Origin: Thermotoga neapolitana DSM 4359
GTDB lineage: Bacteria; Thermotogota; Thermotogae; Thermotogales; Thermotogaceae
Assembly (NCBI RefSeq): GCF_000018945.1
Contig: NC_011978.1
Span: 1,396,729 to 1,460,728 of the forward strand
Length of the DNA stretch: 64,000 nucleotides
Direction of reading: 5' to 3'
Part shown: positions 16,556 through 30,958 of the stretch, in pieces
How the letters are laid out: every line of letters starts with the position of its first letter
Position numbering within the stretch: position 1 is the first letter of the stretch
Translations under genes and position numbers: made by a program
Notes under the pieces: generated by a model
The model's input: only the letters and a program-made list of their open reading frames with translations
Databases searched by the model: none
Told to the model about the DNA's origin: nothing

Positions 16556-16574
16556 TTGCCACAGTTTTGCCACA
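16556..16574. repeat. Paired direct repeat TTGCCACA in the ferritin/prepilin intergenic region
   Basis: TTGCCACA occurs at 16556-16563 and again at 16567-16574, an 11-base period, about one helical turn. It sits upstream of ferritin and of the divergent prepilin operon, just beyond a TAGAAT -10-like element for ferritin. It may be a two-site operator; no known box is recognised. Confidence 0.45.
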
Positions 16575-16608
16575 TTTTTCTGTTAATAATCAAAATGGGG
16601 GTGATACG

Positions 16609-17103
16609 ATGAGGAATGGTTTCACGATCGTAGAGCTTTTGATAACTATAGCTGTTCTTCTCATCGGAATACTCTTGGTTCTGGGATTCACAGCGAGAAC
16701 AATTGTTGCCACTGTTCAGTCGTTTACCACGATCGAGTTAGCGGACGATCTTTTGAAAGCAGCGATGGAAATAAGAAAGGAGATTTTGAAAGCAGGTCCC
16801 AGAGCGGATCAGATTTATCCGGAAAATCCTGAAAAAATTTCTTTCCTTGTGAACGTTCCTTTCGGTGGAGAAAAGTACTATTCCAGGAACTACACATACA
16901 CCATTGCATTTGAAAAACCGGACATCAAATTGTACATCTTCCAGGAAGATTCGAACAGCACAGATACGAGGATACTCGTGACAGATATTTCAACCTGCAC
17001 ATTTTTGGCGGGTACCGGTACTGTCTCTTTTGTTATAGGAAAAGAAAAACACAACATCGAAAGAACCTATTTTATGAGCGTAGCACTTCCCAATCTGAAG
17101 TGA
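16609..17103 (+). CDS. Prepilin-type protein (minor pseudopilin 1)
   Basis: The 164-residue protein starts at ATG 16609 after GGGGGTGAT. The N terminus is a textbook class III signal: MRNG followed by FTIVELLITIAVLL, with cleavage expected after glycine 4, glutamate at mature position +5 and a long hydrophobic helix. The rest is polar, with no recognised domain. Proteins of this kind are cut by a prepilin peptidase and assembled into type IV pili or type II secretion pseudopili. It is first of three such genes in a row, spaced 1-13 bases apart. Confidence 0.8.
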   Translation: MRNGFTIVELLITIAVLLIGILLVLGFTARTIVATVQSFTTIELADDLLKAAMEIRKEILKAGPRADQIYPENPEKISFLVNVPFGGEKYYSRNYTYTIAFEKPDIKLYIFQEDSNSTDTRILVTDISTCTFLAGTGTVSFVIGKEKHNIERTYFMSVALPNLK

Positions 17104-17116
17104 AGGGGTGATCTTT

Positions 17117-18940
17117 ATGAGGAATGGTTCCATTCTTGTGACCACTGTGATAATTCTGGTCATCGTTTCCGTTCTGGGAATCTCTGTGTTCTTCGCGTTC
17201 AATCAATACCGTGAAAATGTGGAATTGACCGCTCAGAGACTGGAGGCTACTTACAGAGCTTCGAACATTTTGAACCTTGGTGTTGCCTGTCTAAAAAAAC
17301 ACTTCGGTTTTTTGGGGATGGAAATCAACTGGTCCACTGGAAGTGTGACATGGTTTGATGATTTCAGAAAAAGAGTTCTGCTTCAGTCAGATGGAGATGC
17401 CTGGGAGAATGTGTTCTCATTGCTGGACACAGAAAAATACTACAATCTTTCTTCAGACATCGATTTCTCTACTGAAGCATCAAAATTGGGATTTTCTAAC
17501 TTTGAAGCAGTAGCCATTCCGTTCAAGAACAACCCGTTCTTTGCTCTGCTTGTTGTAAGAGCACAAGTCGGAAAGGCTGTGGTTTATAAATACGCTGTTC
17601 TTTCTTCAGACTTTCTGAACAAGTACGCGTATTTCACAGAAAAAGAAACAAGACCGGATGGAGATAAGATATACTTCATCACCCAAGATATTATCGATGG
17701 GCCTTTCAGATCCAACGATGTGATACACGTGAAAGGAGAGCCTCTTTTCAAAGGAAGCGTGGAGTTCAAGGATATCGATTTGGAAGCAGGAGAAGGTCCA
17801 AGATACGAAAATCCGCCTCCGAAGTATCTGACGGAAGAGGACATAAAGAAATACAACATAGAAAAGATAAAAGACTATTACTCACAACAGATCGAGAGAA
17901 TAGTAAAGCCAGCGTCTGAAGTTGTTCTTTCGAGTGAACCAGTTGGGATAGAACTTCCGTCGATTAATGAATTCGTTGAAAGTTGGGAAGAAAAAGAGAA
18001 TGACAAGACCATATATTACAAAAAACAACGAGAAATTGTTTACACGCTAGAGTTCAATACTCCGAAAGGAAGTAGTGGGAATGATTACTTGATAAAAGTA
18101 TCATACAAGGAAGTTTACAGAATCTACAAGAGTGAAGACCAGGAAAAATGGAATTTTGTTAGAGAAGAGGTGTTAGGTGAGGGAGAACTTTTCCACATCA
18201 AATCCAAACCAAACAGCGATCAATATCATCTTGTTCTCCAGGGGAATGAAGCAAGAGAATTTCTTGGCCTTGACAGAAACGAGTACGATATATACTTCAA
18301 CGGTGTTATCAAAACAGACAACGATGTTTATCTGAAAAATATGAGCGAAGGGAACATAAAACCCATGTTCGTTGATGGAAGGTACACCATCGTTGCAAAC
18401 AACATATATATAGAAGACCACATCATCTACAACGATTACAGAGAAGTTCTGGAAGAGATCGCCGATAAGGAAAAAATAAGCGGGAACTCTGATCAGAAGA
18501 TCGCACAGGCTGTGATCAGAAAGCTCGGTGTGGACGGAAACATCGAAGAAGATTACTCAGAGCTTTTGAAAAATCACGAATCAGACGATTTCCTCAATCT
18601 GGTAGCGTACAAAAATGTGGTGATAACTGACAAAAAGCCTAATATGAAGATTTTTGCAAGTATATACGCTTTCACCGGAAGTTTTTATGTAAAAGGTTAC
18701 AACGAAAAGGATTTCCTCAAGAACAATGAGCGTGAGCTTACTATTTTTGGTTCTCTTGCACAGTACGTGAGAGGAGCCGTTGGAACTTTCTATTGGTCAA
18801 GAGATGGCAAACCTACCATCAAAACTGGTTACCGTAAAAACTACATCTACGACTGGAGAATCCTCAAGGGGTTTTCTGTGTTTGGTACCCCCACTGTGCC
18901 GAAGGAATCGAACATACTCAATGTGAGAGAGGTGTATTGA
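17117..18940 (+). CDS. Large prepilin-like protein lacking Glu+5 (GspK/PilX-like position)
   Basis: The ~607-residue protein starts at ATG 17117 (MRNGSILVTTVIILVIVSVLG). It has the same MRNG leader and hydrophobic helix as its neighbours but threonine, not glutamate, at mature position +5. A large extracytoplasmic part follows, with charged and aromatic segments; residues about 150-610 carry no domain I can name. In type II systems the tip protein GspK is also much larger than the others and lacks Glu+5, so an analogous tip or initiator role is inferred. Codon use and composition are AT-richer than the surrounding housekeeping genes. Confidence 0.7.
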   Translation: MRNGSILVTTVIILVIVSVLGISVFFAFNQYRENVELTAQRLEATYRASNILNLGVACLKKHFGFLGMEINWSTGSVTWFDDFRKRVLLQSDGDAWENVFSLLDTEKYYNLSSDIDFSTEASKLGFSNFEAVAIPFKNNPFFALLVVRAQVGKAVVYKYAVLSSDFLNKYAYFTEKETRPDGDKIYFITQDIIDGPFRSNDVIHVKGEPLFKGSVEFKDIDLEAGEGPRYENPPPKYLTEEDIKKYNIEKIKDYYSQQIERIVKPASEVVLSSEPVGIELPSINEFVESWEEKENDKTIYYKKQREIVYTLEFNTPKGSSGNDYLIKVSYKEVYRIYKSEDQEKWNFVREEVLGEGELFHIKSKPNSDQYHLVLQGNEAREFLGLDRNEYDIYFNGVIKTDNDVYLKNMSEGNIKPMFVDGRYTIVANNIYIEDHIIYNDYREVLEEIADKEKISGNSDQKIAQAVIRKLGVDGNIEEDYSELLKNHESDDFLNLVAYKNVVITDKKPNMKIFASIYAFTGSFYVKGYNEKDFLKNNERELTIFGSLAQYVRGAVGTFYWSRDGKPTIKTGYRKNYIYDWRILKGFSVFGTPTVPKESNILNVREVY

Positions 18941-18941
18941 C

Positions 18942-19346
18942 ATGAGAAATGGGAGTCTTATAGTTGAAACATTGATAAGTTTGTTTCTCATTCTTCTCAC
19001 CGTCGTTATATTCACAACGATCATTGTGGGAGTGGCAAAAAATGTGACATTCACCGAAGAATCCATTGAAACCTTTCTTTTTACCAATTTTGCGTACGAT
19101 TTTCTTTCCAAGTACGAGGTTGGACATGAGATAGAACAAGGTGTGTACGAAGAGATAAACAGAGAATTCTGGAAAGACAAATGGAACGATCAAAATCCTC
19201 CTTTTCCTCATATTGATCCTTCAGTTTCAACCGTTGAGGATGTTGCTTTGCCCAGCAGCAGTGACGTGAAATACAAAAAGATCACGTTGAAGATAAAAAT
19301 CAACGAAGGAGCTTCAATAGAGAGAATTGTTATAATAGGGGATTAA
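18942..19346 (+). CDS. Prepilin-type protein (minor pseudopilin 3)
   Basis: The 134-residue protein starts MRNGSLIVETLISLFLILLTVV: a short leader ending in glycine, glutamate at +5, then a hydrophobic helix. The remainder (about 100 residues) is charged and unrecognised. The gene begins one base after the stop of the large prepilin-like gene, so the three are surely co-transcribed. Its stop codon forms part of the sigma-28 type promoter of the following flaG-fliD pair. Confidence 0.78.
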   Translation: MRNGSLIVETLISLFLILLTVVIFTTIIVGVAKNVTFTEESIETFLFTNFAYDFLSKYEVGHEIEQGVYEEINREFWKDKWNDQNPPFPHIDPSVSTVEDVALPSSSDVKYKKITLKIKINEGASIERIVIIGD

Positions 19347-26878: not shown

Positions 26879-27532
26879 TTATCTTTCGCTGTTCACGTAG
26901 TTTTCCAGATCTTCCACGTAGTTTCCTTCCTCGTCGATCCACGGTTTTTGGTTCTTAAGTGTGAGTGTGATCGTGCCTGTGTCTCTGTAGGTAGATGCAC
27001 TGTTACATCTCACAACGTGTATTCTGTTCCAGAGTTTGTAGGTTGCGCCGTCATGGAGGATTTGACTGTCAGGTACTAACAGAGTCACATTGTTGAGATC
27101 TGGAGCAGGTGTCCACACTTCTTCCGGTATGGGAAGCTGAGGACCGAACGCGTATTCTACCTCGATCGTGTCGTTAACACTCGTTCCCGTTGCGTACTTC
27201 AGGTGATCAAATCCACTGAAGGTGATCTCAAGATCGCTGTTGCTATGAAGTTCTGCTGTTATACAGTTGGCGACGTAGGTTCCGGGTTTTCTCACAAACC
27301 AGGTCCACTTCGTTCCCGTAAGGTGCCATTTCACCCACTGGGCGACCTGAACTTCCAGAGTCATGGGAATTTCCCACTGGTGTCTGTTACAGTTTCCGCT
27401 CATTCCTTCACTGATTAACGCTCTTGCGTTATTTGGATCACTATCTCCGTAAGTGTAAACCGTTACTTCTTGCTGGGCAAAAAACAGAGAACTCACTATC
27501 AAAGCCAACATTATCAACAAAAGTCTTCTCAT
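26879..27532 (-). CDS. Secreted WFVxKPG-family protein A (unrecognised family)
   Basis: The 217-residue protein has a signal peptide (1-19, LLIMLALIVSSLFFAQ). I recognise no domain. It is plainly a paralog of the next two genes upstream: shared are VAQWVKWHL, the TWFVRKPGTYVAN core (about residue 87), a FSGFDH segment, LHDGATYKLWNRI, CNSASTYRDTGTITLTL, and a C-terminal QKPWIDEEGNYVED tail. Two cysteines (SGNCN and VRCNSAS) are conserved in paralog B and may form a disulfide. Composition suggests a beta-sandwich. It is probably a surface or extracellular protein handled by the downstream secretin. Confidence 0.7.
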   Translation of the reverse strand: MRRLLLIMLALIVSSLFFAQQEVTVYTYGDSDPNNARALISEGMSGNCNRHQWEIPMTLEVQVAQWVKWHLTGTKWTWFVRKPGTYVANCITAELHSNSDLEITFSGFDHLKYATGTSVNDTIEVEYAFGPQLPIPEEVWTPAPDLNNVTLLVPDSQILHDGATYKLWNRIHVVRCNSASTYRDTGTITLTLKNQKPWIDEEGNYVEDLENYVNSER

Positions 27533-27575
27533 ACCAATCCCCTCCTCAATTGTTCATGATACAACACGTACCAAC

Positions 27576-28253
27576 TTATCTTTCAGGGGTCACGTAATTC
27601 GCCAAATCTTCCACGTAGTTTCCTTCTTCGTCGATCCAAGGTTTCTGGTTTTGAAGCGTGAGCAAGATGTATCCGGTGTCTCTGTAGGTGGATGCACTGT
27701 TACAATTCACTACCTTGATTCTGTTCCATAGATAGAAGGTCATCCCATCGTGGAGTTCCTGGCTGTCCACCAACGTATAGGAAAGATCGTTTACATCGGG
27801 TGCTCTCACCCAGCTTTCAGGATCTGGCATTCCCTCGTCGGTCATAACGGTGTAGTAGGCTTCGATCTTTGGGTTGACACTGCTTGTTCCTGTGTAGGTT
27901 GGGTCATCAAAACCACTGAATGTTACCAGAACATCTCCGTTGCTTGCGACAGTTCCCACTATGGAGTTCGCATAGTAGTCTCCAGGTTTTCTCACAAACC
28001 AGGTCCACTTCGTTGCGTTCAGACTCCACTCGAGCCACTGGGCAACCTGTACTTCTGTTGTGAATTCAATCTGCCACTCAGGTTTGTTACAGGATCCATC
28101 GGCCGGGTACGCACTGAACGCTCTTGCCAGGTCGTTCGTTGCTGGAAGACTGATGTACTGACCATCCTCGTACTTCCAGACCTCAAGTGGTGTCTGTGCC
28201 AGGGCGAAAGAGAACAACGCTCCCATCAAAACTAACCAGAGTAACTTTCTCAT
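27576..28253 (-). CDS. Secreted WFVxKPG-family protein B (unrecognised family)
   Basis: The 225-residue protein has a signal peptide (1-19, LLWLVLMGALFSFALA). It is strongly similar to protein A over its whole length. The TWFVRKPGDYYAN core, the LHDGMTFYLWNRI and CNSASTYRDTG segments, and a nearly identical C-terminal tail (QKPWIDEEGNYVEDL) are visible. DNA similarity is also high at the 3' ends and in the leader (GGAGGGG upstream of ATGAGAA in both), indicating tandem duplication or gene conversion. It is separated from A by a 43-base gap with no hairpin seen. Function unknown. Confidence 0.7.
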   Translation of the reverse strand: MRKLLWLVLMGALFSFALAQTPLEVWKYEDGQYISLPATNDLARAFSAYPADGSCNKPEWQIEFTTEVQVAQWLEWSLNATKWTWFVRKPGDYYANSIVGTVASNGDVLVTFSGFDDPTYTGTSSVNPKIEAYYTVMTDEGMPDPESWVRAPDVNDLSYTLVDSQELHDGMTFYLWNRIKVVNCNSASTYRDTGYILLTLQNQKPWIDEEGNYVEDLANYVTPER

Positions 28254-29342: not shown

Positions 29343-29612
29343 ATGGAAGTGAAGATAGAAAAACCCACACCGGAAAAACTCAAAGAACTCGGTGTGGAAA
29401 GGTGGCCTATCTGGGAAAAGGAAGTCAGTGAGTTCGACTGGTACTACGACACGAACGAGACCTGCTACATTCTGGAAGGGAAAGTGGAGGTAACAACGGA
29501 GGACGGAAAAAAGTACGTGATCGAAAAAGGAGATCTCGTCACATTCCCTAAGGGCTTGAGGTGCAGATGGAAGGTCCTGGAGCCTGTGAGGAAACACTAC
29601 AACCTGTTTTGA
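29343..29612 (+). CDS. Small cupin protein (DUF861-like)
   Basis: The 89-residue single-domain cupin starts at ATG 29343 after GGGGGTGATG. The barrel motifs are visible: CYILEGKVEVTTEDG followed by YVIEKGDLVTFPKGLRCRW. It looks almost identical to the T. maritima protein of known structure that I remember (TM1112), with a few substitutions. That protein's function is unassigned; the family includes ureidoglycolate-hydrolase-like and sugar-binding cupins. It is followed by the SRP RNA promoter. Confidence 0.88.
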   Translation: MEVKIEKPTPEKLKELGVERWPIWEKEVSEFDWYYDTNETCYILEGKVEVTTEDGKKYVIEKGDLVTFPKGLRCRWKVLEPVRKHYNLF

Positions 29613-29614
29613 AC

Positions 29615-29643
29615 TTGAAATATCCCAAAAAGTGTCGTAGAAT
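29615..29643 (+). promoter_or_regulatory. Promoter of the SRP RNA
   Basis: TTGAAA (29615-29620), a 17-base spacer and TAGAAT (29638-29643) place transcription start at about 29649-29650. That is exactly where the closing helix of the SRP RNA begins. Confidence 0.85.
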
Positions 29644-29648
29644 AATGG

Positions 29649-29922
29649 TGCACCACGCTAGGCGGGGGGTTGGCGGTCCCCTGTACCCGAAATCCGCCAT
29701 ATGCGGGGCCGAACTCCCACCCGAGGCTCTTCGGGTCGGGAAACGGTGTGGTTCGGAAGCGATGAAGGTCGGGTCCTACGCAACGGAGCCCTGTGAACCT
29801 GGTCAGGCCCGGGAGGGAGCAGCCATAAGCAGGTGTCTCCGTGTGCCGTGGGGGTGCCCGACCGGAGCTCTCCGACCACGTACGCCCCGGTCCGGGGATG
29901 TCGACGGTGGGTGCGTGGTGCA
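29649..29922 (+). ncRNA. ffs: Signal recognition particle RNA, large bacterial type with Alu domain
   Basis: About 274 bases. The ends pair perfectly: TGCACCACGC at 29649-29658 with GCGTGGTGCA at 29913-29922. The 5' part carries the Alu-domain pattern (GGCGGGGGG...TGGCGG...CCTGTACCCGAAATCCGC). The universal helix-8 core GGTCAGGCCCGGGAGGGAGC, with a GGGA tetraloop and the AGCAGCC side, is at 29801-29826. It scaffolds Ffh for co-translational targeting. A T-rich tract (TCTTTTGTTT) follows the closing helix. A prepilin-like gene appears to start within the last few bases of this RNA. Confidence 0.95.
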
Positions 29923-30364
29923 TCTTTTGTTTGGCTACACCATCGTCGAGGTTCTCAGTTTGCTTTTCTGTTTCTGCACGATCGCACTGATCGGCTTTCT
30001 CTCCCTCTCTCTTGCCCTGGAGACAAAAGCCCACCTTGTGAACGATCTGGACAGAACACTCGATGAACTCTACGCTGTGGATTTCATGAGGCACGAGTAC
30101 GAGGTGAAAAAGGCAGAAACACCTTCTTCCTCCGTTACTCCATCCTGTCTGAGTTTCAATGCAGATTACAAGGGAAAAAGCGGCAGGATCTCTTACATTG
30201 TGGTCTTCAACGATGGACTGTACAAACTGATTCGAAGAGGATTGAGTGGTGAAGGAAACAACTATCTACTCGAAACGAAGAAGAAGATAGTTTTCCTTCA
30301 GGATGGAAAGGTGTTCTCCGTGAGGATAGGAGGCACAACCTACGATCTTGGGGTTTCAGAGTAG
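29918..30364 (+). CDS. Prepilin-like protein whose start overlaps the SRP RNA 3' end
   Basis: The ~148-residue product has the class III signal FGYTIVEVLSLLFCFCTIALIGF: cleavage after glycine, mature start YTIVE with glutamate at +5, then a hydrophobic helix, then a polar C-terminal part (residues ~45-148) with no known domain. Possible starts are GTG 29915, GTG 29918 (6 bases after GGTGGG) and TTG 29927; all lie in or directly beside the SRP RNA closing helix. The open frame extends upstream through the RNA, but that part is not protein-like. It ends with a 9-base convergent overlap with the antiporter gene mnhB. Which start is used is uncertain. Confidence 0.7.
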   Translation: MHLLFGYTIVEVLSLLFCFCTIALIGFLSLSLALETKAHLVNDLDRTLDELYAVDFMRHEYEVKKAETPSSSVTPSCLSFNADYKGKSGRISYIVVFNDGLYKLIRRGLSGEGNNYLLETKKKIVFLQDGKVFSVRIGGTTYDLGVSE

Positions 30365-30958
30365 TCCTCTGTGTTTTATGAAGTAGTACACCACTATCCA
30401 GCTTCCCAGCATCACCTTCAGATACACGATCACGTTGGCTAAAACGATGAGGTTCCTTCCAGGAAGAATCAGGAAAGCAAGGAAAAGAAAGAGAGCCATG
30501 ATCATCTTCTCGAGAGAGTGTACACGCATCCTTTCGAACTTCCTCTCGAAATTTTCGAACTCCTCGACCATGGCTATCAATGCAAGAGCCGTTCCACCCG
30601 CAACTCCGGCCGAGAACCCCCCACCGGGACTCACATGACCCTCGATCGCAAGGTACAGAGATCCCACCAGAAGAAAGAACGCGATGAAACGTGTGAAGAT
30701 CCTGATGGAAACGTCTGATATACTCTTTATCTCTTCAGGAGCGGGAAGGTACGACATGTGAAAGGAGACTCCCAGAACCGCAAGGGAAAAGATGAGCACC
30801 TCGAACACCGTATCGTACACCCTGTTCAGAAGGTATATCTGCGTTATGGGATTTTCCACCACAGTATCTCTGAGATCTATGGGAATCTTTTCGAAACTCC
30901 CACTTGCAACCAGCACAGCCCCAAAAATCACAAGCACCGCTATCCAGACCCATCTCAT
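30356..30958 (-). CDS. mnhB: Cation antiporter subunit: MbhE-like region fused to MnhB/MrpB domain
   Basis: The 200-residue membrane protein starts at ATG 30958 (ATGA overlap with the preceding gene). Residues ~1-85 (IPIDLRDTVVENPITQIYLLNRVYDTVFEV...LAVLGV) fit the MbhE/MrpA C-terminal segment. Residues ~105-200 fit MnhB, with the signature SLYLAIEGHVSPGGGFSAGVAGG and about four membrane segments. It belongs to the multi-subunit Na+/H+ antiporter module encoded by this and the six preceding genes and is the last of them. No hydrogenase subunit follows. Confidence 0.87.
   Translation of the reverse strand: MRWVWIAVLVIFGAVLVASGSFEKIPIDLRDTVVENPITQIYLLNRVYDTVFEVLIFSLAVLGVSFHMSYLPAPEEIKSISDVSIRIFTRFIAFFLLVGSLYLAIEGHVSPGGGFSAGVAGGTALALIAMVEEFENFERKFERMRVHSLEKMIMALFLFLAFLILPGRNLIVLANVIVYLKVMLGSWIVVYYFIKHRGLL

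Follow-up and report, generated by a model that had tools for sequence, protein, structure and literature searches.

In the genome of Thermotoga neapolitana DSM 4359, a stretch of 64,000 nucleotides (NC_011978.1, positions 1,396,729 to 1,460,728; hereafter the window, whose own coordinates are used throughout) raises the question of how a protein gene could be expressed when its start codon seems to lie inside the 3′ end of a housekeeping RNA gene. A preliminary description of this DNA had proposed that a prepilin-like gene begins within the gene for the signal recognition particle (SRP) RNA, with its possible start codons (GTG 29915, GTG 29918 and TTG 29927) and a putative ribosome-binding site, GGTGGG (29906-29911), in or next to the closing helix of the RNA. 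We compared this locus with genomes of the same order and phylum, and we consider, with a probability of roughly 0.7, that transcripts reading through the SRP terminator serve as the pilin mRNA, with translation beginning at GTG 29918 or 29915 once the strand carrying these codons has unpaired.

GTG codons inside the closing helix of the SRP RNA

An Rfam scan of the whole window listed a single match, the bacterial large SRP RNA (RF01854) at 29653-29918 on the plus strand (195.2 bits against a gathering cut-off of 60, E 9.9e-33), covering model positions 1-256 of 256. The closing helix reaches beyond the end of this model: its 5′ strand (29649-29658) pairs with its 3′ strand (29913-29922) in 41 of 41 SRP RNAs, with all 410 cells (41 RNAs by 10 pairs) paired; the pair type varies at nine of the ten positions. 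From the Rfam match and this helix comparison, the SRP RNA gene was set to 29649-29922, and both GTG 29915 and GTG 29918 therefore lie inside the helix. These codons, TTG 29927 and the GGTGGG site stand where the preliminary description had put them. The unconstrained minimum-energy fold of the region differs from the Rfam structure, and pairing probabilities from that fold were not used.

The SRP RNA was detected in 41 of the 45 genomes of the order, and a pilin frame lies directly 3′ of it in 12, namely seven of g1, the genus of the window, together with G034, G035, G042, G043 and G044 (designations such as g1 and f1 are arbitrary working labels for genera and families). All 12 belong to family f1, and in our comparison of genomes the linked overlap was found only in this one family of the order. 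The frame holding the motif FGYTIVE, which in the window ends at the stop codon 30362-30364 and is open backwards through the entire SRP RNA, contains no stop between the SRP 3′ end and the pilin in any of the 12 linked copies. The codon corresponding to 29918-29920 is GTG in 11 of these 12, whereas none of the 29 unlinked SRP RNAs has GTG there, showing GCA, GCG or GTA instead (two-sided exact test, 3.8e-9, a value that is too extreme, since the GTG cases trace to roughly two separate lineages, one of g1 and g4, the other g5). The pair 29652-29919, which lies under the middle base of GTG 29918, is an A-U pair in 11 of the 12 linked genomes, whereas 28 of the 29 unlinked ones have G-C at this place; since every cell of the closing helix is paired, the GTG was accompanied by paired base changes. 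On the conserved open frame and the distribution of GTG, the overlap of the SRP RNA and the pilin gene is judged not to be due to chance.

Both GTG codons and TTG 29927 are in frame with FGYTIVE. In-frame ATG, GTG or TTG codons common to the eight nearest genomes are found inside the SRP RNA at codons 0 (29918), -1 (29915) and -25 (29843), and two more lie further out, at -90 on the 5′ boundary of the SRP RNA and at -101 ahead of it. Between helix and pilin motif, these genomes have no such codon in common. The frame does not stay open that far in the three g5 genomes: it closes at -69 in G042, -55 in G043 and -86 in G044. Their codon -1 is ACG, as in G034, and their codon 0 is GTG, so 29918 is the preferred start and 29915 the second choice. 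Starts at -90 or -101 were rejected because of this closed frame and because they would give a leader of about 100 residues. TTG 29927, which lies in the T-tract just outside the helix, was also dropped as a start, being present in only two of the eight nearest genomes (G000 and G041). Translational coupling to an ORF (open reading frame) that ends at the GTG was set aside, as no stop codon occurs in any frame between 29900 and 29935. In G032, whose pilin gene is not linked to the SRP RNA, a strong Shine-Dalgarno (SD) sequence, AGGAGG, precedes ATG CGC CAC TCT, and the resulting leader, MRHS, resembles the leaders MRFS and MRLS read from the SRP GTG in g5, which supports GTG CGC as the true start there.

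A minor-pilin-like gene and its distribution

The gene behind the SRP RNA would run from 29918 to 30364 on the plus strand and encode 148 amino acids plus stop. Homologues were found in 26 of the 45 genomes of the order with a single-protein search, and in 57 of the 103 genomes of the phylum with a profile of 25 rows, although a few of the weakest of the latter are matched through the N-terminal helix alone and could represent different pilins. Among the rows compared, the starts of G042, G043, G006, G002, G024, G025 and G027 were revised from provisional ones; the row of G009 still starts some residues upstream. The ratio of nonsynonymous to synonymous substitution rates (dN/dS) was computed for 28 pairs from eight rows, and since dS was saturated in most of them (infinite in 8 and above 2 in 11 more), we quote only those four between Thermotoga rows in which dS is below 0.5; they gave 0.117, 0.094, 0.084 and 0.089; the next pair, G000-G041 (dS 0.83), gave 0.190. 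Together with the homologues and the 12 open frames, these values show that the ORF is a real gene under purifying selection.

The protein shows features of a type IV pilin, with an N-terminal hydrophobic helix and the sequence G^YTIVE, in which Glu stands at +5 after a small residue. Gly -1, Tyr +1 and Glu +5 are invariant in the eight nearest genomes; among more distant relatives, g5 has Ser at -1 and most f2 and f3 rows have no leader. The best AlphaFold model (2 sequences) had a mean predicted local distance difference test (pLDDT) score of 86.6, with the other four models at 81.3 to 54.0, and it consists of one helix (3-64) and eight strands; the predicted model shows the helix and antiparallel sheet of a pilin fold. 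A Foldseek search with this model gave no match at E <= 0.001. Pilins surfaced in a second look with VIA-align, not with Foldseek: 5bw0_A (Z 8.6), 3cfi_H (8.4), 2ret_D (8.1), 5g24_A (7.2) and 5g23_D (6.9), followed by a next row at 5.6, where Z below 8 may reflect a common arrangement. These five best structures are all pseudopilins or pilins, with a sequence identity of 9-12%. The NCBIfam model ComGF (NF041002) matched at 20.5 bits (E 4.3e-4), and 8 of 25 members match it at E <= 0.05; a ComGF identity was set aside because this score is far below the curated NCBI cut-off of 80 bits. No Pfam family came near its cut-off, and a sequence search of the PDB returned nothing credible. We therefore call the predicted product a minor-pilin-like protein of GspJ/ComGF shape, and not ComGF. 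A prepilin peptidase (PF01478) is present in G000 and in 44 of the 45 genomes.

The leader peptide that would precede the cleavage site, MHLLFG (29918-29935), has Gly at -1 and is coded largely by the T-tract of the SRP terminator (29923-29932, 8 T of 10), an arrangement that goes beyond the preliminary description. In the eight nearest genomes the predicted leaders are MH followed by LLFG, FLFG, FSSG, LFGG or FFFG, and the Gly is coded by GGC, GGT or GGG, so it is kept as an amino acid. Type IV pilin leaders are described as hydrophilic or neutral and ending in Gly or Ala (in the available part of PMC10191384). All eight end in Gly, yet MHLLFG is hydrophobic; MHFSSG of G036-G038 is closer to that rule, and leaders in some more distant families are MKKG or MRRG. 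The odd leader would be explained by its derivation from the terminator T-tract.

The surroundings of the SRP RNA-pilin pair vary among the linked genomes. In the window it is flanked by a cupin gene upstream and a convergent ORF downstream, which we take to encode an antiporter-subunit-like protein, while a NusA-like ORF lies upstream in G034, a tRNA-Gln and a response-regulator-like ORF lie upstream in G042, and a K+-channel/TrkA-like ORF converges from downstream in both of these (names read from the ORFs). The SRP RNA and the pilin gene were thus retained as a pair while their surroundings changed. Elsewhere the pilin gene was found behind an aspartate-semialdehyde dehydrogenase-like ORF in the f2 members examined and behind a NusB-like ORF in several f3 members (both names from ORF reading). 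In G032, which belongs to genus g2 of f1, it lies behind a GTPase-like ORF, and in G033, a genome 92% complete, an SRP RNA is present and the phylum profile search found no pilin. In the protein tree (25 rows, against 57 genomes in the profile search) G032 is nested among the linked rows, and the node uniting all f1 rows has a support of 80/51. The linkage conserved in this family, which is likewise additional to the preliminary description, is thus probably old in f1 and was probably lost in g2.

In seven f3 orthologues of the pilin gene (G026, G024, G023, G025, G028, G030 and G022; loci L017, L024, L025, L026, L103, L102 and L108) no ATG, GTG or TTG occurs between the upstream stop codon and the motif. 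All seven show a G-rich SD-like run followed by ATT, ATC or CTG; in relatives, ATG, GTG or TTG occupies this column, and the codon of the f3 genes looks like a conserved non-canonical start. The window itself contains a cluster of pilin-like ORFs with MRNG leaders at 16567-19346 (16567-17103, 17108-18940 and 18942-19346), of which PF07963 matched only the first. Two adjacent, similar, secreted-looking ORFs of 217 and 225 amino acids occupy 26879-28253 on the minus strand; these have no Pfam family and no NCBIfam match near its cut-off.

Probable expression by read-through and the alternatives to it

A sigma70-like promoter, TTGAAA-N17-TAGAAT (29615-29643, 10 of 12 consensus matches), precedes the SRP RNA, and a consensus scan of both strands of 29560-30460 gave no other promoter-like match (0.5 expected by shuffling), so an internal promoter for the pilin gene was rejected. 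With the SRP RNA promoter as the sole match, the pilin message is probably a read-through product of the SRP transcription unit, and it would carry SRP sequence at its 5′ end, as had been supposed. A terminator-like match ends at 29925, within the T-tract. At the other end of the gene, a terminator-like hairpin on the plus strand (CAGAG-TAGTC-CTCTG with TGTTTTAT, 30357-30371) spans the pilin stop codon; its CAGAG/CTCTG arms are the same in six of the eight nearest genomes, broken in G037 and absent in G035. The stop codons of the pilin gene and of the convergent minus-strand ORF share this one short hairpin (window 30356-30371).

The SD-like sequence GGTGGGTG (29906-29913, including GGTGGG) lies inside the SRP RNA. 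Scored with an assumed anti-SD sequence and with the best start among the first 30 codons taken for each ORF, it reaches -8.5 kcal/mol at 37 C and is weaker than the median of 50 window ORFs (-11.8). In an ensemble that was not constrained to the Rfam structure, the calculated cost of opening 29905-29925 drops from 17.4 kcal/mol at 37 C to 7.3 at 80 C, which is consistent with the earlier suggestion that the site is sequestered in the helix. The weak SD-like site and the opening cost together point to a low translation rate.

We therefore favor the following course of events. The pilin gene would have no promoter, SD sequence or start codon of its own, and the 3′ end of the SRP RNA gene would serve instead. 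RNA polymerase would initiate at the SRP promoter; the majority of transcripts would stop at the closing helix and T-tract and yield SRP RNA, and a minority would pass this terminator and end 3′ of the pilin gene. On the read-through RNA, ribosomes would use GGTGGGTG and GTG 29918 (or 29915), that is, the 3′ strand of the closing helix, and would translate the T-tract as the leader MHLLFG. A single RNA could hardly be a folded SRP RNA and a translated mRNA simultaneously, and this mutual exclusion would keep the pilin scarce and tie it to SRP RNA synthesis. In G042, G043 and G044 (L037, L043 and L066) tRNA-Gln(TTG) ends 7 nt 5′ of the SRP RNA, a gap that leaves no room for a promoter and suggests a tRNA-SRP RNA-pilin unit, so that initiation there is probably at the tRNA promoter. 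With this arrangement and a worn T-tract (5, 4 and 6 T of 10), read-through should be commoner in g5, and the SRP 3′ end there should need trimming.

Several observations weigh against this reading. The eight nearest genomes have 7-9 T among the 10 bases of the T-tract, no fewer than the 29 unlinked ones (5-9; G034 has 7), so termination may be efficient in them. The SD-like site ranks low: among the 50 window ORFs, only 16% at 37 C and 14% at 80 C have a score as weak as this or weaker. MHLLFG is hydrophobic and without Lys or Arg, unlike MRKRAG and MRNG of pilin-like ORFs in the same genome. The 11 GTG cases represent about two lineages and not independent counts, and in G034 GCG replaces GTG 29918, so translation in this genome must begin at another codon, perhaps the next in-frame start of this copy (L010 / L052), an ATG six codons on that lies past the T-tract and inside the pilin motif. 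Two pairs with the distant G035 (dS above 1) gave dN/dS of 0.417 and 0.376. Finally, in the SRP RNA tree G034 joins G032 and G033, and G035 stands apart from Thermotoga; this conflict, together with the long branches of G035, G034, G002, G027 and G032 in the protein tree, makes the age of the linkage unsure.

Among the alternatives, the best surviving, although unlikely, is that the mRNA arises by cleavage in or near the closing helix, exposing a short 5′ end or a leaderless GUG, with maturation of the SRP 3′ end as the same event. An RNA beginning at 29912 would cost only 2.1 kcal/mol to open at 80 C, and the worn T-tract of g5 means that its SRP 3′ end probably requires processing; however, a cut at 29890 or 29905 still leaves 8.8 or 6.1 kcal/mol at 80 C, and a cut exactly at the GUG is disfavored because no leaderless transcripts are reported for T. 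maritima in the available part of PMC3636130. Slightly less probable is translation from GTG 29843, 25 codons upstream within the SRP RNA, with a leader of 31 residues. This codon is in frame in 11 of the 12 linked genomes, missing only in G034, and long leaders are known among type IV pilins (PMC10191384, as far as its available text goes). It is, however, part of the GTGTGCCG stretch of the SRP RNA, which most unlinked genomes also have and which is thus not linkage-specific; a distance of 100 nt between the apical loop and the SRP 3′ end is common to the 12 linked genomes and six unlinked ones, so conservation of the frame inside the SRP RNA is uninformative about this start. Most of such a leader would be coded by structured RNA, and the leaders of relatives (MKKG, MRRG, MRHS) are short.

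Translation beginning past the motif or at a non-canonical codon, with no leader as in many f2 and f3 relatives, is given a marginally lower chance. In f3 orthologues the first codon, often ATT or ATC, falls on the mature +1 residue, and G034 has an ATG at +3; against this, Gly -1, Tyr +1 and Glu +5 stay invariant in the eight nearest genomes despite synonymous changes, and these share no common near-cognate start, G036-G038 having TCC CTC where G000 has ACC ATC. We regard as a long shot the idea that the read-through RNA is a self-targeting mRNA, in which a functional SRP RNA, or the part of it that binds Ffh, forms the 5′ leader of a prepilin message, prepilins being among the proteins that SRP brings to the membrane; message and targeting particle would then be joined in cis, and opening of the closing helix would be the switch between free SRP RNA and pilin mRNA. 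That the ORF is a decayed or untranslated relic, as its missing promoter match and weak SD-like site might suggest, is very improbable given dN/dS near 0.1 in close pairs, 12 of 12 intact linked copies and a best model with pLDDT 86.6.

The overlap in the light of known systems

In E. coli, the housekeeping 6S RNA gene ssrS is co-transcribed with a downstream protein gene, ygfA; to our knowledge, the start codon of ygfA does not overlap the RNA. Our literature search found no title or abstract opening that describes an overlap of an SRP RNA with a pilin start. The annotated RNAs of T. maritima include the SRP RNA, and the 5′UTR analysis in that species excluded transcripts with a functional RNA as first feature (both from the available part of PMC3636130).

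If read-through translation from the closing helix is true, about 25 bases would act at once as closing helix and terminator of an essential RNA and as ribosome site, start codon and signal leader of a protein gene, and would do so in several genera. The locus would then allow tests of how a start codon held in a stable helix can work at 80 C, and of whether leaky termination of a housekeeping RNA regularly supplies a scarce protein. The involvement of SRP in particular is notable, prepilins being among its clients (according to the accessible part of PMC10191384). The locus also shows that protein starts can be misplaced when RNA genes are masked during annotation.

Like GspJ-type minor pseudopilins (EpsI:EpsJ and XcpV:XcpW) and Thermus TTHA1219, the protein is predicted to combine a long N-terminal helix with a beta sheet; by sequence it is closest to ComGF. 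It differs in its low identity to the structural matches (9-12%), its low ComGF score (20.5 bits against 80), its orphan gene and its unusual leader. The RNA matches bacterial large SRP RNA (RF01854) over its full length, but unlike the typical member its 3′ strand would double as a translation start and its terminator as leader codons. In E. coli, the terminators of the small RNAs SgrS, with setA downstream, and RyhB are leaky, and 3′-extended transcripts enter the downstream sequence (PMC4509938, in its available part), which is a precedent for read-through of a small-RNA terminator. In contrast to SgrS and RyhB, the SRP RNA is a housekeeping RNA, the start codon of the gene downstream would be base-paired within the RNA and the T-tract would be coding, and the accessible text of the same source describes no such overlap for setA. 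The T. neapolitana locus, with an overlap that is real and tied to the helix by compensated changes, is thus best seen as small-RNA read-through combined with an overlapping gene start.
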